Shown: in pieces, positions 3,138-23,297 of the stretch
Layout of the letters: each line of letters opens with the position of its first letter
Numbering within the stretch: the stretch's first letter is position 1
DNA from: Planctomycetaceae bacterium
GTDB lineage: Bacteria; Planctomycetota; Planctomycetia; Pirellulales; UBA1268
Direction: 5' to 3'
NCBI GenBank assembly: GCA_027486095.1
Contig: JAIXPT010000095.1
Location: forward strand, 1 to 32,242
Length of the DNA: 32,242 bases
Notes under the pieces: generated by a model
Seen by the model: the letters and a program-made list of their open reading frames with translations, nothing else
What the model was told of the DNA's origin: nothing
Database searches by the model: none
Translations under genes and position numbers: made by a program

Positions 3138-3895
3138 ATGAAACGAGCCTTTGTTCTCCTGGCCGTCGCCCTCTTCGCCGCCGTCCGTCGCGTGCTCCCT
3201 GCCGCGCGGGTGGGCGGCCCCGACACGGCCGGCGACGGCGGCGCATTCATGGACGAGTTTCTCGACCACTGCCTCCGCGGCACCAACTTCGCCACGGGAG
3301 CCCGTGGCACGCCGCTCGACTTCGTCTCGTTTCACGCCAAGGGGCAGGATCCCGAGGGCTGCGCGGCCTGCCAGGGGCCGCAGTTGGCATGCCGCAACGG
3401 CATGATGTATTCGAGCTACACCTCGGCGAGCTTTCCACGAAGGCTCGCCCTCGCGGAGCGGGTCGGCGGCTGCCGGTCGAGAGCGATGGCGAAGTGCCGC
3501 TCGACACGCTGCTCGCGGGCGGCGTCCGTGACCGGCCCGACGTGGCCGCGATCGCCAGCCGTGACGGCGACAGCCTGTGGGTGATGGCCTGGCACTACCA
3601 CGACGACGACGTGCCGGGGCGGGAAGCTCGCGTGACGCTGGCGATCCCCGGCTGGAATGGCGGCCCCGTCCAGCCGACCCACTACCGGATCGACGAAGAC
3701 CACTCCAACGCCTTCGCCGTGTGGAAGCGGATGGGATCACTGCAGGAGCCGACGACCGAGCAGGTGGCTGAAATGGATCGCCGCGACGGGCTCGAGGAGG
3801 CTGCGGCGCCGGAGGTGCGGCTCGATGGCAAGACGCTCGTCGTCATGTTTCCGCTGCCTCGTGCCGCCGTAAGCCTGCTCGAATGGCGGCGGTAA
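3138..3895 (+). pseudogene. Decayed GH39-like (beta-xylosidase) gene with internal deletions and a frameshift
   Basis: Signal peptide MKRAFVLLAVALFAAV, then FLDHCLRGTNFATGARGTPLDFVSFHAKGQ joined directly to DPEGCAACQGP...MMYSSYTSASF, then a frame change into GRRLPVESDGEVPLDTLLAGGV...DGDSLWVMAWHYHDDDVP...GWNGGPVQPTHYRIDEDHSNAFAVWKRMG. Confidence 0.75.
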
Positions 3896-4162: not shown

Positions 4163-7100
4163 ATGAACTCGTGCGAGCAGTATGGCCCGTTCAGTCGCAC
4201 CGTCGTGTTCATGCGGGGGTATTGCGTTTCAGCACGGCTTGTTCATGGCATCCTCGCCGCCCTTTTTGCGATGTGTGCCGCGCCGGCGCTCGCCGCCAAC
4301 GGCACGTGGAGCGGGGGCGCGGGCGCCACGTGGAGCACGGGCACGACGAACTGGCTCAACCTCACGGGCACCCCGTGGGACATCACCAACGGCGGCACGA
4401 ACGCGGCGATCTTCAACACTGCCAACGCCACGCCGACAGTGAGCGGCACTGTGTGGGCGAACGGTATTACGTTTGCAAACGCGGCCACGATCTCGGGCGG
4501 CGTGATCAATCTGGCCGGCACGACACCAACGATCACCAACACTGCCAGCGGCACCATCTCGTCGGTCCTCGACGGCTCTGCGGGCCTGACCAAAGCCGGC
4601 GCGGGCACGCTCGTGCTTTCGGGCTCGAATTCGTTCGGTGGCGGCGTGACGCTGACGGGCGGCCAAGTGCAGATCAACAACGCAAACGCGCTGGGCACGG
4701 GCACGTTCACGACCAACGTCGATGCTGCCACGACAATCCCGTTCAGCCTGCCGACGAGCGGCACGGTGGCCAACGCGATCACGGTCACCAGGCCCGGCGT
4801 GGCTCGCACCTACACGTTCCAGCAGAACCAGGCTGGTAACGTGACGCTTGCCGGCAACATCACCGTGGCGGCCGGCAACGCCAACAGATTCCAACTCGCC
4901 ACGGGCGTGAGTTCCGGCACGTTCACGCTTACCGGCAGCAACTCGTGGGGGGCGGACCTTTTTACGGGTGCCAACATCACGTTTCGGTTCAGCGGTACGA
5001 ACGCCGCGGGCGGCACCGTGTGGCGGCCCGACGCCACGACAAACTTTGTTCTCCTCGACGGAGCGGTGTTCAGGTCAACGATCGGCAACACCATCGCCTC
5101 GTATGGCATGGAAGCGTCGGGGACGGCCTCGGTGACGGGTGACGTATTCGGCGCCGGCCCATATGCGATCAACACCCCTGCCGGTGCGCAACTTTCCTTC
5201 ACTGGGGTCTTACGCGGGGGAGCGACCTACAACAAAACTGGCGCCGGGACGTGGATCATGACCGCCGCTAACGATCCGCTGACGGTCAATCTTCTCGATG
5301 GGGCGTTGCGGGTCTCAGTTTTCTCAGCGCTTGGCGGCTCGTCCGGAGCGTCGTACCTGGTGCTCAACGGCGGCACGCTGCGGTATACGGGCGCCGCCAC
5401 AAGCACGGCCAAGCAGTTCACGCTCGGGGCGAACGGCGGCAGCCTCGACGCCTCGGGTTCAGGGGCTGCGAACTTCACGTCGGGCTCGGCAGTGGTGTTT
5501 GCCGGCAGTGGCAATCGCACGCTCACGCTTACGGGCACCAACACCGGCGCCAACACACTCGCGGCGGCGCTCAATGACAACGGCTCCGACAAGGTGAGCC
5601 TGGTGAAGACCGGTGCCGGCATATGGGTGGTTTCCGGCTCGAATGCCTATAGCGGTGGCACAACGCTTTCGGCCGGCCAGCTCACCATCAACAGTGCAAG
5701 CGTTATCGGCACGGGCACGTTCACGATCTCGAGCGGCACGCTCGACAACGGCTCCGGTGCGGCCGTCACGCTCGCGACGAACAATCCGCAGGTGTGGAAT
5801 GGCGACTTCGGGTTCGTCGGCTCAAACGCCCTCAATCTGGGCGCGGGCGCGGTAACGCTCGGCGCGAACCGCCAGGTGACGGTGACGTCGAGCACACTGA
5901 CGGTTGGCGGCTCCATCGGCGACGGCGGCAGCGGCTTCGGCCTAACCAAGGCGGGCGCGGGCACGCTCGTGCTTGCGGGTTCCAACTCGTTCAGTGGCGG
6001 CGTAACGCTGACAAGCGGCCAGCTTCAGATTGCCAACGCAAGCGCCCTGGGCACAGGCACGCTCACAACGAATGTCGATGCCGATACGACGATTCCGTTC
6101 AATCTGCCGACAAGCGGCACGGTGCCCAATGCGATCACGATCACCAGGCCCGGCGTCGCGCGCACGTACACCTTTCAACAGAATCAGGCTGGTAACGTGA
6201 CGCTTGCCGGCAACATCACCGTGGCGGCCGGCAACGCCAGCAGATTCCAACTCGCCACGGGTGTGAGTTCCGGCACGTTCACGCTCACCGGCAGCAACAC
6301 GTTTGGGGGAGACGTGGGGACGGGAGCAAACGTCACGTTTCGGATCGGCGGCACGAATGCCGCAGGTGGCCAGGTGTGGCGGCCAGACGCTACGGCAAGC
6401 ATTATCCTCCTCGACGGGGCGTCATTCAGAACGACCATTGGCAACGCGATCGCCTCGTATGGCATGGAAGCGTCGGGGACGGCCTCCGTGACGGGTGATG
6501 TGAACGCAGCGAGCGCCTCCACTCTCGCGATCAACACCCCTGCCGGTGCGCAACTCTCGTTTGCCGGCGTCGTTCGCGGCGGAGCGACCTACAACAAGAC
6601 TGGCGCCGGGACGTGGATTCTGGCAAATACGTTCAACGACGCGACGAGGGCCAATCTCCTCGAAGGTACGTTGCAGGTTCCGCTGTTCTCAGCGCTTGGC
6701 GGCTCATCGGGAGCGTCGTACCTGGTGCTCAATGGTGGCACGCTGCGGTATGCGGGCGCCGCCGCAAGCACGGCCAAGCAGTTCACGCTCGGAGCGAACG
6801 GCGGCAGCCTCGATGCCTCGGGATCGGGGGCTGCAAACTTCACGTCGGGCTCGGCGGTGGTGTTTGCCGGCGGCGGCAACCGCACGCTCACACTCACGGG
6901 CACCAACACCGGCGCTAACACACTCGCGGCGGTGCTCAACGACAACGGGGCCGACAAGTTTAGTCTGGCGAAGACCGGCGCCGGCCGATGGGTGCTTTCC
7001 GGCTCAAGCAGCTATACGGGGGGCACCTACATCGCGGCCGGCACGCTCGCCGTGAATGGCAGCATCGGCGGGGCGGTCAACGTGGCAAGCGGGGCCGCTC

Positions 7101-7576
7101 TCGGTGGATCAGGCGTGCTCAATGGCCTCGTAACCGTGGCAGCGGGTGGTATCCTCGCCCCGGGCAACAGCCCCGGCACACTCACGATGAATTCAGGCCT
7201 GTCGCTCGACGCCGCCTCGATTCTCAACTTCGAACTCAACGCCACGGACAGTACGGCCGGTGGCGGCATCAACGACCTCGTGAATGTCGGCGGCAACCTG
7301 GCGCTCGCCGGCATCTTGAACGTGGCCGGCATCGGTGACTTCTCGAATGCAGCCGATTTCACGACCTGGCGGTTGTTCAGCTACACAGGCACGCTCACCA
7401 ACAACGGCCTCACGCTCGGCTCGATGCCGTCGGTGGGTGCGTCCGGCAAGTCCTTCCAGATCAATACCGCGACGACGGGCCAAGTAAACCTCGTGATCGT
7501 GCCCGAGCCGGGCTCGCTCGCCTTGGCCGGGCTCGGCATCGGCCTCGCCGGCTGGCTTGCGATCCGCCGAAAGTAA
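4163..7576 (+). CDS. PEP-CTERM protein with autotransporter-associated beta-strand repeats
   Basis: Signal peptide ending ALAA; repeated [35 protein letters not shown] units; C-terminus [30 protein letters not shown] about 9 nt before ATG. Confidence 0.92.
4576..5665 (+). repeat. Internal duplicated module, copy 1
   Basis: Aligns with about 5932-7027 at an offset of about 1356 bp; GGCTGGTAACGTGACGCTTGCCGGCAACATCACCGTGGCGGCCGGCAACGCC is identical in both. Confidence 0.85.
5932..7027 (+). repeat. Internal duplicated module, copy 2
   Basis: See copy 1. Confidence 0.85.
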
Positions 7577-9761: not shown

Positions 9762-12725
9762 ATGCGACAAACAATCAACCAGCGGCGTGCGAGCCACGTG
9801 CTGCTCGCGGTGATCGTCGTCGGGCTGCTGGGGCTCAGGCACCCGTGCCTTGCGTCTGAGCCCGTGGAGATCGGCGCGGGCAGGGTCGTCTTGAAATTCG
9901 CCGCCGACGGCCGGCCGAAGTCGCTGCTCGCGGACGGCAAGGAGCTGCTCAATGAGCAGGATCCGGGCCCAGGCTTCGAGCTCATGGGCTTCGCTTTCGA
10001 CGAGAGGCGGCCCGTCTCCTTTTTGTTCAAAGACCTGCGCTGGGACGGGCGGCAGCTCGTGGCCGCGATCAAGGACAACATTCGCATCACGTTCGACGTG
10101 ACGGCGGCCGACCGCTATCTCGCCTTCCGAATCAGCCGCGTGGAGGGCGTGCCGAAAAGCAACCTGCTCTGGCTGCGATTCAAGATGAACACGGACTGGA
10201 AGATGAAGACGCTGCCGCTCGACTTCATGACGCGGGCCGCCAACTGGGGATGCGATGTGAGTTGGCCCTGGCTGTGGGCCAGGGGTTCGGGTACGCCGCT
10301 TGGCAGTTTCGCTCTCTACGTGCCCTCCGATGCCGCCGACGAAGACGAGACGCTCCTGCACCTGTGGGCGAACGAGGGCTTGCCGCACCCCAGGGTTGAG
10401 GGCGAGTGGACGGTCGAGCGAGCGCGGGCCTGGCTCGCGGAGTGGCAACGGGAGTTTGCCGATCAGAGCCAGCTCTTGATCACGGCAACCACGAATGCAG
10501 AGCTCTTTGAACTCGCCGACTTCGCCGCGAAGCTGGACATCAAACGCATCTACATGCACACCGATACCTGGCACGGCGAATACTGGCCCCGGAAGTACAG
10601 CTTCCTGCACCTCAACCCGAGCACGTTCCCCGATGGCGAGAAAGACTTCCAGAAGTTCGCTGCCTATGCACGAAGCAAGGGCATCGGCCTGGCGATCCAC
10701 ACAGTGAGCTGCCCGATCGCCAACGCGGATCCCGACTACGTGGTCGGCAGGATCGACCCGCGGCTGGCGAAGTGGATCGAAGGCACGCTCGCCCGCCCTG
10801 CGGCCCCGACGGACACCACTCTCCTGTTCAAGCCCGCGCCCGGCGGCGAGATGCCGGAGAGCCTGGGTCGGCCGATCACCGGTCCTGAGCACGTCGATCC
10901 TTGGAACAACATTCGGGTGATCCGCCTCGGCGACGAGTTCGTGGAAGTGGGGAAGTTTGGTGATACCGACCGTGACGTATGGACTCTCGAGGGATGCCGA
11001 CGCGGGCTGTTTGGCACCGCCGCGGTCGCCCACATGGAGCACGCGCCGCTGATCGGCCTGATTCGGCCCTACGGCCAGGTCTTCACGGCCGACAGCGACA
11101 GCACGCTCGTCGAGGAACTTGGCCGCCGAATCGCTGAGTTCTACAACCGCACCGGCATCAATCATTGCGAACAGGATGCCGGCGAGATCCACACGGTCAA
11201 CAGGCCATGGGGCTACGCCAAGTTTGCAGAGTTCGTCTACACGAACGTTGATCACCCGATCACCAGCAATAACTCTGGCGGCTCGCACATGCCTTGCCAG
11301 TTCGAGTATCGCTTCAACAGCTCGAAGGCGGCCGTGGCGGCACGAAAGCAAGCAACTGTGCCGCTGATGCTTCCCCGCAACGGCCGGCTGGCAACGGGAC
11401 CGTATGAGCTGTGCTCCGGGATGGGCAAGGCGATCGCCTCGGGCGTGAGAAGCGTGGGCATGCATAAGCCGGAGCCGATGTTTGGAGTGTCGCAGGAGAT
11501 CCTGCGCACGCATGGTCTGGCTGGCCATGCCGCAGAGACGGTGCTGGCCTGGAAGCGGGTCGCGCCGCTGCTTTCAGACGAGCAGCGCAAGACGATCCTC
11601 GCGGCCGACGAGAACGTGTTGTTTCGGGCGGCCAAGACCGCGGTCGGCTACGAGGTGGTTCCGCTGCGGATGCTCTTCCGACCAGGCATCGACATCGGCT
11701 GGAAGAGTGGGTCGGAGTTTGGGCCCATCGTGCCCCGGCAGTATTTCCAGGCGGGCACCCGCCTGGCTGTGGAAAACCCCTACGGCGAACAGGAGCCGGA
11801 ACTCCTGATCCGCGTCATGAGTGGGTTCGGTGGCCCGGCGTTGGCGAACGTGCCCGACGACGCCCGAGCCCCTCAGGCCGCTGCTGCCGAAAAGGCGCTC
11901 GTGGAGTCGTACAACATCGGGGCTGGCATCAAGCCAACTGACGCGTCATCGCCGAAGGCATCGCAGTCCGATCCGGCAAAAATGGTTCTCCAGCCAAAGG
12001 CGGGGCAGATTCGGAACATCGGCGACCATCTGCTCACCGACGACGGCGCCGCGCTCGCGATTCGCTTCGAGAACAAGCGCGGCGAGGCGATCCGCAACGA
12101 AGCGAATCTTCCCGTCTTCGAGTGCTCGGCAGACATGGAGCGGGCGCGGGGTATCGCCGTCACCGTCACGGGGGACGGCAGCGGGGCGGTGCTCGTGCTG
12201 CAGGCGCACTGCCATGGCCCGCGGGATTACGTGATCCCGCTCGACTTCAAAGGCCCGCGTGACGTCGTCATCCCGTGCGGGGAAGTGTCGTGGAGCGATG
12301 CCCGCTGGGGCTGGCGGTTTGAGACCAAAAACTCAAAGTATGGCCCCCTGCGCAGGATGTCGCTTGGACTGGGGCAGGTGCCGCCGAAGACGACGGTCAA
12401 TATTTCGATCGCCAATCTGCGGCTGCTGCCGGAAACACCGGCCGCATTGATCGTCCCAGTGATCAGCGTTGGGGCAGGCACGCTCGAGATTACGGGCACG
12501 ATCGCGAGCGATTCGTATGCCTGGTATCGGGGCGGCGAGACGCTCGGCGTCTACGATGCGAACTGGCAGTTGATTGCCACGCTACCCGTGGTCAAGAAAA
12601 ACTTTGTGGCACCGCACGGCCCGCTGGAGATCGGTGTCGAAAGCAAAGGCCCTGGCCCCATGCCATGGCTCGAGAGCCAGTTTTTTGTCAAGGATGAGCC
12701 GCTGCGCGTCCAGCACCCAGAGTGA
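9762..12725 (+). CDS. Large secreted protein, putative TIM-barrel glycoside-hydrolase-like with C-terminal beta domains
   Basis: 987 aa; signal peptide; LLITATTNAELFELADFAAKLDIKRIYMHTDTWHGEYWP...; acidic NRTGINHCEQDAGEI; repetitive beta-rich C-terminus. Specific family not recognised. Confidence 0.7.
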   Translation: MRQTINQRRASHVLLAVIVVGLLGLRHPCLASEPVEIGAGRVVLKFAADGRPKSLLADGKELLNEQDPGPGFELMGFAFDERRPVSFLFKDLRWDGRQLVAAIKDNIRITFDVTAADRYLAFRISRVEGVPKSNLLWLRFKMNTDWKMKTLPLDFMTRAANWGCDVSWPWLWARGSGTPLGSFALYVPSDAADEDETLLHLWANEGLPHPRVEGEWTVERARAWLAEWQREFADQSQLLITATTNAELFELADFAAKLDIKRIYMHTDTWHGEYWPRKYSFLHLNPSTFPDGEKDFQKFAAYARSKGIGLAIHTVSCPIANADPDYVVGRIDPRLAKWIEGTLARPAAPTDTTLLFKPAPGGEMPESLGRPITGPEHVDPWNNIRVIRLGDEFVEVGKFGDTDRDVWTLEGCRRGLFGTAAVAHMEHAPLIGLIRPYGQVFTADSDSTLVEELGRRIAEFYNRTGINHCEQDAGEIHTVNRPWGYAKFAEFVYTNVDHPITSNNSGGSHMPCQFEYRFNSSKAAVAARKQATVPLMLPRNGRLATGPYELCSGMGKAIASGVRSVGMHKPEPMFGVSQEILRTHGLAGHAAETVLAWKRVAPLLSDEQRKTILAADENVLFRAAKTAVGYEVVPLRMLFRPGIDIGWKSGSEFGPIVPRQYFQAGTRLAVENPYGEQEPELLIRVMSGFGGPALANVPDDARAPQAAAAEKALVESYNIGAGIKPTDASSPKASQSDPAKMVLQPKAGQIRNIGDHLLTDDGAALAIRFENKRGEAIRNEANLPVFECSADMERARGIAVTVTGDGSGAVLVLQAHCHGPRDYVIPLDFKGPRDVVIPCGEVSWSDARWGWRFETKNSKYGPLRRMSLGLGQVPPKTTVNISIANLRLLPETPAALIVPVISVGAGTLEITGTIASDSYAWYRGGETLGVYDANWQLIATLPVVKKNFVAPHGPLEIGVESKGPGPMPWLESQFFVKDEPLRVQHPE

Positions 12726-12732
12726 GGAAACC

Positions 12733-14718
12733 ATGAGACAGTGCATAATGCATTTCGTTGGTGTGCTAAGTCTGACGGCTGCGACGGCCGCCGCGGACCA
12801 GGAGTCGCTCCCGCCCCTGCAAGACGGCAAGGCACCGACGAACCTCACCGAACTATGGGGCAATTACGACCCGGGCGTTGAACCGCTCGACACGCAGGTG
12901 GTGCGGGAGTGGGAGGAGAATGGCATCACGCTGCGGCATGTCGTCTTTACGGTGGGCGTGTTCAAGGGAAAGCCCGCGCGACTCGCCGGCTTCTACGGCT
13001 TTGTTAAAGGAGCCGAGCGATTGCCGGGGATTCTTCAGGTGCACGGAGGCGGGCAGAGCGCCTCCCTCGACGAGGTCCGCGGATTCGCCCGCAACGGCTA
13101 CGCCTGCCTCTCCATCAACTGGGGTGGCAACAAGATGGAGGGTGTGAAAGACGACGAGCCAAACACCGATTGGGGCGCACTCGACGCCACACAGCGGCAC
13201 AACAGCCACTACTCCGGCGGCAAGCCCGACTCGAAAACGCTCGATGACGTCGAGTCGCCGCGAAACAACAACTGGTTTCTGCTCGTGCTCGCGGCGCGGC
13301 GGGGCCTCACGTTTCTGGAGCAGCAGCCCGAGGTCGATCCAGACAGGCTGGGCGTGACCGGCCATTCGATGGGGGGCAAGATCACGGTCAACGTGGCCGG
13401 CATCGACCGCCGCGTGAAGGCGGCCGTGCCCTCCTGCGGCGGCTCAGGAGGTGCAGGCGGAAAGCTGAGCGGCATGCCGGGGGCGGGGGTCGGGGCCGAG
13501 AAGCCGAGCATCTACGACGCGACGATCGACGACCGCGCGTACATCCCGGGCATCACCTGCCCGATCCTCTTCATGTCGCCCACCAACGATTTCGCCGGCC
13601 CGTTCGACAACATGACGGAAAACTGGCGGAAGATCGGCAGTCGGATCGTGGGCTTCACGGTCGCGCCGCATTTCAATCACCGCGCACTCCCCGAGACCTC
13701 CATCTGTGGCGTCCTCTGGTTCGACCAGCATCTCAAGGGGGGCTTTCGGTTTCCTGCAACGCCCGAGCTGACCGTCACACTCGAGACGGCGAGCGGTGTG
13801 CCACGGGCGACGGTGAAGCCGGACCGGGTGGCCGACGTCGCGAAGGTGGACCTCTATTATTCGATCGATCCCCACTGCATCACCCGGTTTTGGCGAGACG
13901 CGGAAGCGAAACGGGACGGTGATGCCTGGACCGCCGACCTGCCGGTGCTGAGCACCGACCAGCCGCTCTTCGTGTATGCCAACGTCAGCTATCCGCTGAC
14001 GACCGAGCGGCTCGGCTTCCGGGGATCAAAGCCACCCGCGACGTTCATGATCTCTTCCCGCGAGGCGATTCTCCTGCCCGAAGACCTACAGACGGTGGGC
14101 GTGAAGGCGACCGACGCGCCCACGCGATTGATCGACGACTTTGGCCGCGGCTGGCACGATTGGTGTCGGCTCGAATGGGCCAACCCGCACCATTGGTCTG
14201 TCACCACCCACAAGATCAAGGATCCCAAGTGGCGCGGGCCCGACGGGGCGAGGCTCGTCTTCGACCTCAAGTGCCCGACCGACATCGTCCTCAGGGTGAC
14301 GGTCACGTCGAACGGCTGGGGGGCATTCCCTGGTTTGCCCTGGGGCCGCACCTACCAGGTCCGCAAGCCGATCAAGGGCTCGCCCGACTGGCAGACCATA
14401 TCCGTGTCGCTCGACGAGCTGGTTGCCATCAAGAAAGACGACGCGTCGAGGAAAGACGATCCGTCCACGCTCACGTCGTGGGCGACGGCGACGGAGCTGA
14501 ACTTTGGCTGGGCACCGACGTACATTCAGGATGGGCAGGAAGTGCCGTTCGGACCGGAAAACTCGCAGCGCAACGGCTGGCATGAGCCCCGTGAGTTCAG
14601 GAACCTGCGTTGGGAAGGGGGCAGCGACGCAGCTGCATCAGTCGCTCCCGCCCCCGCCGCCCCGGCCCCCGGCGAACTCGATGCGACGATCCAATCAGAG
14701 ATCAAGAATTCGCTCTGA
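12733..14718 (+). CDS. Secreted alpha/beta-hydrolase, acetylxylan-esterase-like, with C-terminal beta domain
   Basis: ILQVHGGGQSAS oxyanion region, GVTGHSMGGKIT nucleophile elbow, APHFNHRALPE histidine region; GAGGAAACC upstream of ATG. Confidence 0.85.
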   Translation: MRQCIMHFVGVLSLTAATAAADQESLPPLQDGKAPTNLTELWGNYDPGVEPLDTQVVREWEENGITLRHVVFTVGVFKGKPARLAGFYGFVKGAERLPGILQVHGGGQSASLDEVRGFARNGYACLSINWGGNKMEGVKDDEPNTDWGALDATQRHNSHYSGGKPDSKTLDDVESPRNNNWFLLVLAARRGLTFLEQQPEVDPDRLGVTGHSMGGKITVNVAGIDRRVKAAVPSCGGSGGAGGKLSGMPGAGVGAEKPSIYDATIDDRAYIPGITCPILFMSPTNDFAGPFDNMTENWRKIGSRIVGFTVAPHFNHRALPETSICGVLWFDQHLKGGFRFPATPELTVTLETASGVPRATVKPDRVADVAKVDLYYSIDPHCITRFWRDAEAKRDGDAWTADLPVLSTDQPLFVYANVSYPLTTERLGFRGSKPPATFMISSREAILLPEDLQTVGVKATDAPTRLIDDFGRGWHDWCRLEWANPHHWSVTTHKIKDPKWRGPDGARLVFDLKCPTDIVLRVTVTSNGWGAFPGLPWGRTYQVRKPIKGSPDWQTISVSLDELVAIKKDDASRKDDPSTLTSWATATELNFGWAPTYIQDGQEVPFGPENSQRNGWHEPREFRNLRWEGGSDAAASVAPAPAAPAPGELDATIQSEIKNSL

Positions 14719-18042: not shown

Positions 18043-21000
18043 ATGGTGTTTGCCCGCATGCCCAAAACACAGTTCGGAGTGGTTCTCGCGTGTGCGGCCT
18101 GCCTGACGGCTGGGACAGTCACTTGTGCCTCCGCAGCCTCGCCGCTGCTCGACGTGTTTCCGCCGTCGGTGGCGGACGTGCCGGCCGCGGAACGCGGTGC
18201 GACCACGATCACGCTCGACTACACGCCCAGCGGCAGCGTGTGGGCCGAAGGGCTCGATGAGCGGCAGGTGTTTCTCGCCCAGCTTGTTCATGCGCAGGGC
18301 CAAGACGATTCGTTCGCCCTACGGGTGGGGCAGGGGGGGCAGATCTATTCGCTCCGCGGAGCCTTTGGCGAGAGCGTGCCGCCGTCGTGGCGATTTCCCC
18401 GCGATGAGCGCTCCCCGTGGAACGACGAAGTATGGCAGTTCGTGGCGGTGTGCGGCCGATACAACGGCATCGACCCGCTGCTGCGGGCGGGCAAGGTGCC
18501 AGACGACGTGCAGGCGCGGTGGAAGACGCTTCCCTACAAGACGTCGTTCTTCATCCACAACTCGGGGGCCTACATTCCCGGCGAGTCCGCCGTGCAGAGC
18601 CTCTATTGCCCGCTCCTCGCCTTCGAGGCTGATGCCGAGGCCCGCACCGTCCGCACGCTCAACTGGGGCCTCGTGCCGCAGGTGCGCACGATCCACCGTT
18701 CGCCGATCCTGTTTTCCTGCCAGACCCGTGACGTGGGCGATGGCATCGTCGAACTCACCTGGGTCGTTCACAACTTCAGCACACGCGACGATATCGTCTT
18801 CGACTTCCTGAACGCGCCGTGGGGCGGCACCCGGCTCACGAGCCTGCCAGTGCATGCGATCAGCGGGCCCGACGGCCAGCCGCGGCCGCGGGCGAAGATG
18901 TTTCCGGCGGACCGGCCCGATAAGGAAATCGCCGTCGCCAAGACCGGCGGCTGGCGGGTGGCAAGCGCGAGCGACGCCGCCGACGCCGCCAGCCTGGCCC
19001 TCGTCTTTGGCCGCGATCGCCACCTGGAGGAAGAGCGGGCAAAGGCGGCGCGGGGCGAACCGCACTGCCAGCAGGGCCCGAGCGTGCTTCGCGACTATCT
19101 GGCCCACGCGCCGCAGCTCTACGAGAAGCTCTGGGAAGACTGGCGAACGCGGCCGGAGAATTCGTTTCGCAACTACGACGTGATCGAGTTCATCCCCAAG
19201 CTCCGGCTCGCGCCCGAGACCTCGATCTGGTATCGCGTGTTTCTGGTGGTGAATCGCCGCGATCGGGCGATCGAACTGGCCCGCTCGCTCGTTGACAAGG
19301 TCGATTACGGCCTGCTCACGTTCGACCCGGCCACCACGCCGCGAATGCCGGTGCATGTGCGCGACGGCCGCGTCGTCGATCCCGCCGCGGCTAAGGGCCC
19401 GCCTGCGTTCGAGGTCTACGCCAAGCCCGTGCCCGGCTCGCTGCCGCTCTTTCTGCTCGAAGACACAGCCACCGGCCGGGAGGTCGTGTCCACCGATCCC
19501 TATCGCTTTGTGCCGCAGGAGCCGCTCGACCTCGGCGTGCCCGCGGATCATCCGCACCACGACTACTACGCGCAGGTGAAGGGCATCGCCCTCGACCGCC
19601 ACACGACGAAGTGGAAGCGGCTCCTGGGCTACGGCCTCCGGGTCAGGCCTGATCACGATAGCGATCGCTTCAAGCCGGTCTCTTCAGCAACTGGGCCAGA
19701 GCTTTTCCCCGCCGCCGATGCGCACCACGTGGACGTATGGGTGCGGGCCGAGCGAAGTGGTGCCGCCGCCGTGCCGCAGTCGGTCGAGGAACTGTGGGCC
19801 GACTTCGACCCGCGGCTCGATCCGCTCGAAACGGAGGTGATTCGCGAGTGGCGGGAGGATGGCGGTGTGTTTCGTCACGTGCGGTTTTTCGTGGGCACGT
19901 TCAAGAGCAAGCCGGCGCGGATGACGGCGATCTACGGCTTCCCGGAGAAGGCCGAGAGCAAGGTACCGGCCGTGATGCACATCCACGGCGGCGGCCAGCG
20001 AGGCTCGCTGTCGGAGGTGAAGTTTCTGGTGCAACGCGGCTATGCCGCGTTGTCGGTGAACTGGGGCGGCGACGGTGACGGCAAGCCACCGTTCAACACC
20101 GTGGAGGGGGCAGAGCCCGGCGATCCAAACACCGACTGGGGTGCCGTCGATCCCTCGCAGTGCAATGCTCAGGGCTATTCCACGCTCCTCCCGGGACCGC
20201 TGCAGGTGTTCGACGGCGATGAGCAGCCCCCGAGAAGTCATCCGAAGAACAACAACTGGTATCTCCTCGCGATCGGCTGCCGCCGCGGGCTCACATTCCT
20301 GGAGCAGCAGCCGGAGGTCGATCCAGCGCGGCTCGGCGTGCACGGCTACTCGATGGGGGGCAACCTCACGATGTATGTGGCTGGCACCGACGACCGCGTC
20401 AAGGCGGCTGTGCCCGCGGTGGGCGGCCAGGGCTGGCGGTGGGAGCCGCACGTGTTTTCAAGCGGCACCGTGCCGCCGCAAGACCGCGTGAAAGGCGATG
20501 TGGATCTCTTTCGCCGCACGATCTCGTTTGAGAGCTACGCGCCGCGTATTCGCTGCCCCGTCCTGCATCGCAGCGCCACGAACGACTTCCACGGCTGGAT
20601 GGACGACGTCTATCGCACGAGCGCGCTCATTGAGGGGCAGCCGCTGCGGTATTCCTGGGCACCGCACTTCAACCACCGGCTCACCCCTGAGGTGGCCGTG
20701 ACGATGCCGCTCTGGCTCGATCAGTTCCTCAAGGGCGGCCCGGTGTTGCCCGAGACGCCCAAGGTGACCCTCGATCTAAAAGCCGGCGACGGCGTCCCCC
20801 GGCTCACCGTGCGGCCCGATGGTTGCTGGCCGGCAGCTCGCTGCGAGATCTTTTATTCCATCGACTCCGATCCGCGGGCCCGGTTTTGGCGAAGCGCCGA
20901 CGTCGTCCGCGAGGGTGAATCGTTCACAGCAGCCCTGCCGCTCGAATCGACCGCGCGGCCGCTCTTTGCGTTCGCGAACGTGTATCACACGCTGCCGGAG

Positions 21001-21609
21001 CCCGTGCCGATGAAGGCGTTGCCCGGCAACGGCGATCTCGTGCGCGAGGTGTGCCTGAGCAGCGAGATTCGCTCGGCCACGCCCGCCGAACTTGCAGCCG
21101 CGGGCGTGCGTGAGCACCCGGTGGCCGTGCGGTCCGGGAGTCCTTCTGGCAGCCTGTTGATCGACGATTTTTCGAACGGCTGGCGCGACTGGTATCTGCT
21201 GAACGCCGGCAACCCCGTGCACTGGCAGCACTGGACCCGAAAGATCACCGATCCGGCGTGGCGGGGGCCGAACGGCGCGGCGCTAGCGATTACGCTCACG
21301 ATGCCGAAGACGAACACGCTCACGGTCGTCGTCGTGGAAAACGAGTGGCGCAGTGAGCGCGGCCGCCGCCGCACGTTCACCTGCACCCGCGAGGTTCAGG
21401 GCAATACCGAGCCCCAGACGCTCCTCCTCACGCCCGCTGACTTCGTGCCCACCGACGAGAAGCTCGGGCCCCTCGCCTCGTGGGCCCAGCTCGATGTGCT
21501 CGGCCTGTGCGGCTTTCACCCCGATGAGAAGCCCGCACGACAGCCCACCTGGGACGGCCCACTTCCTGAGTTCCAACGGGTCGAGTGGATCATCGCGACG
21601 GGGCCGTGA
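18043..21609 (+). CDS. Secreted fusion: unknown N-terminal domain plus acetylxylan-esterase-like alpha/beta-hydrolase
   Basis: 1188 aa; the C-terminal about 620 aa parallel the 12733 gene (ELWADFDPRLDPLETEVIREWRED, VMHIHGGGQRGS, GVHGYSMGGNLT, APHFNHRLTPE, LLIDDFSNGWRDW); N-terminal about 560 aa unassigned. Confidence 0.82.
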   Translation: MVFARMPKTQFGVVLACAACLTAGTVTCASAASPLLDVFPPSVADVPAAERGATTITLDYTPSGSVWAEGLDERQVFLAQLVHAQGQDDSFALRVGQGGQIYSLRGAFGESVPPSWRFPRDERSPWNDEVWQFVAVCGRYNGIDPLLRAGKVPDDVQARWKTLPYKTSFFIHNSGAYIPGESAVQSLYCPLLAFEADAEARTVRTLNWGLVPQVRTIHRSPILFSCQTRDVGDGIVELTWVVHNFSTRDDIVFDFLNAPWGGTRLTSLPVHAISGPDGQPRPRAKMFPADRPDKEIAVAKTGGWRVASASDAADAASLALVFGRDRHLEEERAKAARGEPHCQQGPSVLRDYLAHAPQLYEKLWEDWRTRPENSFRNYDVIEFIPKLRLAPETSIWYRVFLVVNRRDRAIELARSLVDKVDYGLLTFDPATTPRMPVHVRDGRVVDPAAAKGPPAFEVYAKPVPGSLPLFLLEDTATGREVVSTDPYRFVPQEPLDLGVPADHPHHDYYAQVKGIALDRHTTKWKRLLGYGLRVRPDHDSDRFKPVSSATGPELFPAADAHHVDVWVRAERSGAAAVPQSVEELWADFDPRLDPLETEVIREWREDGGVFRHVRFFVGTFKSKPARMTAIYGFPEKAESKVPAVMHIHGGGQRGSLSEVKFLVQRGYAALSVNWGGDGDGKPPFNTVEGAEPGDPNTDWGAVDPSQCNAQGYSTLLPGPLQVFDGDEQPPRSHPKNNNWYLLAIGCRRGLTFLEQQPEVDPARLGVHGYSMGGNLTMYVAGTDDRVKAAVPAVGGQGWRWEPHVFSSGTVPPQDRVKGDVDLFRRTISFESYAPRIRCPVLHRSATNDFHGWMDDVYRTSALIEGQPLRYSWAPHFNHRLTPEVAVTMPLWLDQFLKGGPVLPETPKVTLDLKAGDGVPRLTVRPDGCWPAARCEIFYSIDSDPRARFWRSADVVREGESFTAALPLESTARPLFAFANVYHTLPEPVPMKALPGNGDLVREVCLSSEIRSATPAELAAAGVREHPVAVRSGSPSGSLLIDDFSNGWRDWYLLNAGNPVHWQHWTRKITDPAWRGPNGAALAITLTMPKTNTLTVVVVENEWRSERGRRRTFTCTREVQGNTEPQTLLLTPADFVPTDEKLGPLASWAQLDVLGLCGFHPDEKPARQPTWDGPLPEFQRVEWIIATGP

Positions 21610-21610
21610 C

Positions 21611-21826
21611 TCACGCCCGCGCCACTCTGAGCCGCGCGGCGATCCGCCGGAGGCCCCGGTCATGGGTCCAGAGCCGATGTGATCCCGCGACGGCTCCAAT
21701 TCCGCACGCCAGTTCCCCGATGACCAGCGGATGGCAGACGACATCGCCCGCCTCCAGGAGGCTCGCAAGTTGGGCGTTAGCGCGCCGCAGATGCTCGATC
21801 CAGACGGACGTATCAACGAGCACCAC
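21611..21826 (-). pseudogene. VapC-like PIN toxin with a large internal deletion
   Basis: 71 aa; intact N-terminus MVLVDTSVWIEHLRRANAQLASLLEAGDVVCHPLVIGELACG runs straight into C-terminal-like HRLWTHDRGLRRIAARLRVARA. Confidence 0.7.
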
Positions 21827-22018
21827 TCAACCCGGCCTCCGCCGGGGGATCGGCCGTGCCTTTGGGTCAGAGCCACCCAACGCCGCGAGTTTGCGGGCCG
21901 ACTCGCGGGCAATCAAGGCGTCCAGTCCCATGCGGACGAGCTTCGTCTTCACGCGCACCCCGGTCAGCCGGGCTGCCTTGGCGAGGGCATCTGCATCGAT
22001 TTCGAGGGTCGTTCGCAT
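21827..22018 (-). CDS. vapB: VapB-type antitoxin
   Basis: 63 aa; MRTTLEIDADALAKAARLTGVRVKTKLVRMGLDALIARESARKLAALGG; abuts the VapC remnant. Confidence 0.85.
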   Translation of the reverse strand: MRTTLEIDADALAKAARLTGVRVKTKLVRMGLDALIARESARKLAALGGSDPKARPIPRRRPG

Positions 22019-22029
22019 GCATATGATCG

Positions 22030-22053
22030 TTGAAAAACGTATGCATTTTTCAA
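22030..22053. promoter_or_regulatory. Candidate VapB operator
   Basis: TTGAAAAA-CGTATGCA-TTTTTCAA, perfect 8-bp arms, 11 nt upstream of the vapB ATG; related copy at 23134-23160. Confidence 0.6.
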
Positions 22054-22054
22054 G

Positions 22055-22175
22055 CCCGGACCCTCACCGCGCGGCCCTAGCTCGATGTGCTTGGCCTGTG
22101 TGGTTACCATCCCGACGAGAAGCCCGCGCGACAGCCCGCCGGGACGGCCCGCTTTCTGAGTTCGACCGCGTGGAG
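22055..22175 (+). pseudogene. Duplicated 3'-end fragment of the esterase gene 18043-21609
   Basis: 22079-22127 aligns with 21488-21536, about 42 of 49 positions identical by eye; encodes LDVLGLCGYHPDEKPARQP versus LDVLGLCGFHPDEKPARQP. Confidence 0.85.
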
Positions 22176-22242
22176 TGGGCAGCCTCGCGTGCCTCGCTCG
22201 TAGGACTGCGCACCGGCGTTCGTCGGAGCGTATCATTTCGGC

Positions 22243-22569
22243 ATGTGGCTGTTGATCGAAGAACGAGAGCGGCAGAAGCAGCGAGATGCACGGCTCGCCG
22301 GCCACACGCGTGGTCTCCTCCGAGCGGCGCTTGCGCGGCATGTGCCCGGCACGGCAGTCTGGGTCTACGGATCGCTCGTCAAGCCCGGGCGGTTTCACGA
22401 ATGGTCCGACGTCGATCTCGCCTTTGAGTCGCTGCCGCCGGGCATGAGCCTCGAATATCTGCAGAGCCTGCTCTCCGCCGACGTGGGCCGCGAGGTCGAT
22501 GTCTGCCGCTTGGATCGCACCCGGCTGCGGACAGCCATCGAACACGAGGGAGAGCGATGGATCGCATAG
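22243..22569 (+). CDS. mntA: MntA-type nucleotidyltransferase antitoxin
   Basis: 108 aa; VWVYGSLVKPGRFHEWSDVDLAFE nucleotidyltransferase motif; overlaps the HEPN gene. Confidence 0.82.
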   Translation: MWLLIEERERQKQRDARLAGHTRGLLRAALARHVPGTAVWVYGSLVKPGRFHEWSDVDLAFESLPPGMSLEYLQSLLSADVGREVDVCRLDRTRLRTAIEHEGERWIA

Positions 22570-23039
22570 CGCTCCAGATCCTCAAAGACGGTTGGGAGCA
22601 AGACGCTCGGGTCATGCGTCGTGCGGCTGAGATCCTGGAGCGTCGCCTCCGAGAGTCGGCCGAGAGCCGCTGGGCTGCCGCCGCTTTCGAGATCAATCGC
22701 ATCTACAACATTCTCAAGAAGGCCTTTGAACGGCTCTGCGAGACGTTTGAAAACCATCTGGGGAAGACCGGCCGCTATCACGACACCTTGATCGAGCGGG
22801 TCACGCTCGACCTCAAGGGCATTCGGCCGGCTTTTCTGCCGACCGACGCGGTCCGGGACGTCCGCGAACTGAAGGGCTTTCGCCACCTGTTTCGCCACGC
22901 CTACGATCTGGATCTCGACCCGGTGCGAATTGAAGAAGCCGCGGAGATCGCATCGCGGACAGTGGCCCACTTCGACGGCTGGTGCAAGGCGTTTCTCGCC
23001 ACCGTCCGCGACAGGTATCGGGGTGAAGTGGACCTCTGA
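22557..23039 (+). CDS. hepT: HepT-like (HEPN) toxin
   Basis: 160 aa; FEINRIYNILKKAFERLCETFENHL...LKGIRPAFL...KGFRHLFRHAYDLDLDPVRIEE with Rx4HxY motif; 13-nt overlap with mntA. Confidence 0.83.
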   Translation: MDRIALQILKDGWEQDARVMRRAAEILERRLRESAESRWAAAAFEINRIYNILKKAFERLCETFENHLGKTGRYHDTLIERVTLDLKGIRPAFLPTDAVRDVRELKGFRHLFRHAYDLDLDPVRIEEAAEIASRTVAHFDGWCKAFLATVRDRYRGEVDL

Positions 23040-23063
23040 GCTGGCCGTTTTGTGACGGCTCTG

Positions 23064-23160
23064 TCACGCCCGCGTCACTCTGAGCCGTGCGGCGATCCGC
23101 CGGAGGTCCCGGACACGGCTCTGGAGCCGACTTTTGAAAAAGGCAAGCATTTGTCAAGCC
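23064..23160 (-). pseudogene. Second, collapsed VapBC copy: vapC 3' end fused to operator remnant
   Basis: Minus strand RLQSRVRDLRRIAARLRVTRA* versus LRRIAARLRVARA* in copy 1; operator-like TTGAAAAAGGCAAGCATTTGTCAAGCC at 23134-23160 (23/27 versus 22030-22056). Confidence 0.8.
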
Positions 23161-23297
23161 GGGGTGGTGTCTGGAATCGCTCGGCGTTCATGTCCGCGGC
23201 TTCAACCGCAGGGGCCGCCCCGCATTTTTCTGGACGGATCAGCAGGGGGAACGTTTGCTCACCATATAGCACCACCGGAGCAAGGCTCGTGACCGAC

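Follow-up and report, generated by a model that had tools for sequence, protein, structure and literature searches.

An mntA-hepT module within one of two diverged copies of an esterase–vapBC segment in a planctomycete contig

The analysed window consisted of an entire 32-kb contig (32,242 nucleotides) from a planctomycete metagenome bin. It contained two tandem copies of a segment made up of the 3' end of an esterase-like gene and a convergent vapBC toxin–antitoxin (TA) module, and an mntA-hepT TA module was located in the second copy only. The anatomy given in a preliminary description of this DNA could be confirmed, with duplication and insertion as its best reading; tandem duplication, later insertion of the MNT-HEPN module and subsequent losses in vapC probably explain the locus best. 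Only VapB, the operator of copy 1 and mntA-hepT look intact, while the toxin VapC appears broken in both copies.

The bin consisted of 3.77 Mb in 456 contigs (77% complete, 3.2% contaminated), and the relatives recovered belonged mainly to Planctomycetota and Verrucomicrobiota. The locus lies between the esterase-like gene and an ORF from about 23307 that encodes a PEP-CTERM protein; on this right-hand flank, the relatives searched provided no orthologue of the PEP-CTERM gene within the genus. E2 was the single esterase remnant of its type in a search of the same binned genome, which revealed no further copy or remnant of this kind for either the esterase or vapBC. A scan for promoters and terminators gave nothing above chance. 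The esterase-like gene also has a neighbouring paralogue at 12574–14718 (45% identity over 559 aa), and the two are similar in DNA at 13714–14250 and 20710–21279. Positions of the features are listed in Table 1.

Table 1. Features of the duplicated locus in the window, ordered by position
Feature	Position	Strand	Basis or remark
Esterase-like gene, 1188 aa, AXE1/DLH-type hydrolase in C-terminal half	18043..21609	+	ORF, Pfam, orthologues; 3' end opens copy 1
E1, esterase 3' end block of copy 1	21460..21588	+	local alignment to 22052-22178, about 82%
C1, vapC 3' end block of copy 1	21611..21677	-	88% to 23064-23130
vapC of copy 1, 71 aa, internally deleted	21611..21826	-	Pfam, NCBIfam, alignment to L132
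vapB, 63 aa, looks intact	21827..22018	-	Pfam VapB_antitoxin PF09957 6e-12; homologues L131, L132
O1, vapBC promoter/operator palindrome, TTGAAAAA-N8-TTTTTCAA	22030..22053		sequence; position common to L131 up to 22054
Duplication joint	22052..22059		AAGCCCGG, common to the operator and esterase sides
E2, esterase 3' end remnant	22052..22178	+	TAG at 22078-22080; 1-base deletion(s) relative to E1
Inserted module, minimum extent	22220..23036	+	81% over 818 bp to same-genus copy L117; no shared flanks
mntA-like antitoxin gene, MNT domain, GSX11DXD	22243..22569	+	Pfam Polbeta 2.6e-4; NCBIfam MntA 9.8e-8, below cut-off
hepT-like toxin gene, HepT-like_2, RX4HXY motif RHLFRHAY	22557..23039	+	Pfam PF20797 9.3e-23
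C2, remnant of the vapC 3' end in copy 2, final 22 codons	23064..23130	-	self-comparison, alignment
O2, decayed operator of copy 2, TTGAAAAA-N8-TTTGTCAA	23134..23157		local alignment

Repeated blocks and the duplication joint

BLASTN self-comparison recovered the three matching blocks in the order originally claimed. The esterase block E was detected at 21467–21588 versus 22058–22178 (E 2.6e-28), and its local alignment could be extended to 21460–21597 and 22052–22189. Block C, the vapC 3' end, showed an E value of 1.5e-18, and block O, the vapBC operator (22030–22059 and 23134–23163; 83%), one of 0.03 across the window. The local scores of E, C and O were 135, 94 and 35, compared with maxima of 28, 27 and 22 among 300 dinucleotide shuffles per block, and each block scored above every shuffle. 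Blocks E and C are significant standing alone; block O alone is weak and was accepted because its position closes both copies. The module lies between blocks E and C in copy 2 and is absent from that position in copy 1, and only 3 bases separate C from O in copy 2 versus about 350 in copy 1, with nothing else of the copies left. Both the confinement of mntA-hepT to the second copy and the disappearance of the vapBC interior from it were thus described correctly at the outset.

The operator palindrome is perfect in copy 1 and carries one mismatch in copy 2. The word at the joint, AAGCCCGG, recurs at the start of E1 (AAGCTCGGG, 21460) and after O2 (AAGCCGGGG, 23156), and the microhomology is AAGC(Y)CGG. 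Such an overlap is the pattern expected if a tandem duplication had started from a short word present at both ends, which it would support without proving it. A segment of approximately 600–740 bp, comprising the last ~130 bp of the esterase, the convergent vapC, vapB and the operator, was likely duplicated in tandem, probably by illegitimate recombination at this word.

The native esterase stop, as present in the more distant relative L028, is kept by E1 and not by E2. When E1, E2 and the same-genus relative L029 (88% in the esterase) were compared, changes at codon positions 1/2/3 were 2/0/6 for E1 only and 1/0/6 for L029 only, both favouring third positions, versus 5/2/6 for E2 only. The E2-only changes are spread over the codon positions, and thus E2 appears to have decayed without constraint. 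Pairwise distances were 17% (E1–E2), 16.5% (E2–L029) and 12% (E1–L029), which would put the copying event near the split from L029.

These distances also bear on another origin of the repeat, namely diverged homologous DNA integrated by a single crossover, such as a sister-lineage circle carrying an esterase tail and vapBC; the 17% difference between the copies would then predate the repeat. In line with this, E2 is as near to L029 (83.5%) as to the window's own esterase (82.7%), and among the three topologies of the 129-bp block (AU 0.40, 0.09 and 0.74) the best one pairs E2 with L029 (0.74 versus 0.40). However, neither the distances nor the topologies of this short alignment differ significantly, the E2-only changes look neutral, as for a remnant decaying in place, and the joint lies at a microhomology and not at a long homologous stretch. 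Integration of diverged DNA is considered rather unlikely. An assembly artefact, in which strains were joined into a chimera, might be suspected in a bin so fragmented, incomplete and partly contaminated, but the copies differ by 12–18% and carry remnant-like lesions, and two strains and precise joins would be required; this origin is regarded as highly improbable.

The inserted mntA-hepT module

The mntA-like and hepT-like genes overlap by 13 bp with the antitoxin gene first, the gene order of MntA-HepT modules. Pfam matches were weak for MntA (Polbeta/NTP_transf_2) and strong for HepT (HepT-like_2). A fold search with a predicted MntA model of medium confidence matched HI0073 and MntA structures, and sequence search against solved structures gave one weak match for MntA and no significant match for HepT. 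The HepT structure predicted without an alignment was a poor model (pLDDT 47), and its best fold match, an AMPylated HEPN toxin, was therefore given no weight. The HepT motif RX4HXY (FRHLFRHAY) is kept in the relatives read. The MntA motif GSLVKPGRFHEWSDVD has the form GSX11DXD, not GSX10DXD, with a loop one residue longer. This form is shared by all relatives read, so the protein represents a divergent MntA subfamily.

In the type VII system of Shewanella oneidensis (HEPN/MNT; SO_3165/SO_3166), the HepT toxin acts as an RNase and is neutralised by MntA, which attaches AMP residues to the tyrosine within the RX4HXY motif (PMC7641770). The module in the window resembles this pair (PMC7641770) in its overlapping genes with the antitoxin first, in an MNT protein with GS...DXD and in a HEPN toxin with RX4HXY. 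It differs from it in the MntA spacing, GSX11DXD against the published GSX10DXD, and in an MntA score below the NCBIfam MntA cut-off; its toxin falls into Pfam HepT-like_2, whereas the classes named for the published system are PF01934, PF08780 and PF05168 (PMC7641770). By analogy, the GSX11DXD subfamily probably, though not demonstrably, works like published MntA-HepT.

Comparison with L117 gave dN/dS values of 0.12 for mntA and 0.095 for hepT, indicating purifying selection on both genes. The neighbours of mntA-hepT differ in the L117 genome and in six more genomes, where the loci are unrelated, and homology to L117 stops at 22220 and 23036, so mntA-hepT is a separate module, a small and mobile unit that is being maintained and brings along an upstream region of its own. 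Most likely it is the live TA module of the locus today. Among its relatives, L119 and L128 lie on one contig, on which an intact mntA-hepT is accompanied, no more than about 2 kb away, by a second, broken copy; a further MNT-domain ORF, with GSX10DXD, lies nearby. The hepT relatives L125 and L127 are truncated or interrupted, so decay of the module seems common in its family.

The module had been described as sitting exactly at the esterase/vapC joint. It does occupy this place in copy 2, but its ends are not sharp: approximately 40 bp (22179–22219) on the left and 27 bp (23037–23063) on the right have no counterpart in the module or in copy 1. Repeat search and flank comparison revealed no terminal inverted repeats or target duplication around 22178–23064, and no transposase could be found among the ORFs around the insert. 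After the duplication, an MNT-HEPN module of about 820–870 bp, complete from promoter to stop, probably settled between the esterase and vapC ends of the right-hand copy and would have stayed functional there.

Since one genome gives no direct reading of the order of events, mntA-hepT could also have stood at the joint before the duplication and been deleted later from copy 1. The esterase end and stop of copy 1 are, however, in register with L028 (83% through 21609) with the vapC stop 1 base later, and a deletion of about 870 bp would need to re-create the esterase/vapC joint exactly, which makes this order very unlikely. Tandem duplication followed by insertion of the MNT-HEPN module at the joint appears to be the most economical reading. 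Of this earlier proposal, the insertion agrees with relatives in which mntA-hepT stands at other places and the flanks are not shared; the order of duplication, insertion and deletion is one that we infer, because none of the relatives compared showed the duplicated locus still unoccupied, or any other intermediate state.

Decay of the vapBC copies

The resident module resembles type II VapBC systems (PF09957 and PIN PF01850) in its single operon, in which a complete VapB gene precedes vapC and a palindromic operator lies upstream. Unlike those systems, its VapC is incomplete in both copies. The protein of copy 1 has 71 aa versus 119 aa in L132; both ends align, and an in-frame gap has removed 48 residues from the middle, among them the conserved D of LIDAHLL. 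Pfam detected the N-terminal half of the PIN domain only, and the score against the NCBIfam VapC model was 27 bits with a cut-off of 80. Given the internal deletion, the half PIN domain and this score, copy 1 very probably no longer encodes a working toxin. Copy 2 retains the last 22 codons of vapC, the rest being gone, and a PIN toxin with a complete acidic active-site set was found in neither copy. The differences between the C1 and C2 tails at codon positions 1/2/3 were 2/5/1, therefore at least one tail has diverged without protein constraint.

Copy 1 as a working vapBC could be ruled out by the absence of the 48 central residues, which the preliminary description did not mention. The decay of the older TA module in copy 2 held, but it had been described incompletely, with the loss in copy 1 overlooked. 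The right-hand vapBC lost its interior and the left-hand vapC its 48 central codons, perhaps after the arrival of mntA-hepT. Most likely the vapBC remnants have no toxin function, and the leftover VapB is probably an orphan, able at most to repress its own operator.

The esterase 3' site and TA module turnover

The sequence behind the esterase varies among relatives. In L029, the 217 bp from the esterase to the contig end are unrelated and contain no vapBC; an inverted repeat of the type ACAGGCT...AGCCTGT is present directly behind the esterase (3780–3840). L028 carries a convergent PIN-domain gene with a FitA-like RHH gene within 20 bp of the esterase (6754–7409, minus strand), a TA pair of a different family from vapBC. 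A convergent PIN-like ORF follows the esterase in L042 (motif match only), and other genes follow it in L027 and L030 (by eye). The esterase 3' end could be imagined as a recurrent landing site for convergent TA modules, where a new module would relax selection on the resident and modules would replace each other; VapB, which has survived, might then persist together with both operators as a small orphan regulator. The cases are few (vapBC then mntA-hepT here, PIN/RHH in L028 and the PIN gene in L042), and these three claims taken jointly are unlikely.

As a small two-gene unit with no transposase and with differing sites in relatives, mntA-hepT resembles the patchily distributed mobile TA modules (Makarova et al. 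2009, PMC2701414). Unlike the general cases in that account (PMC2701414), layers of duplication, arrival and decay seem still readable here at one site. The pattern of copy 1, in which the toxin would have been lost first and the antitoxin kept, is a prediction of addiction models. As a rule, replacement of TA modules is deduced by comparing which genomes have them and which do not. As a single case from one binned genome, this locus illustrates such replacement without proving the process, and a resident vapBC, its duplication, the arrival of another module and toxin loss may be legible as several stages at one site. The modules are of known kinds, and the locus is a clear, fairly ordinary record of TA arrival, movement and decay.
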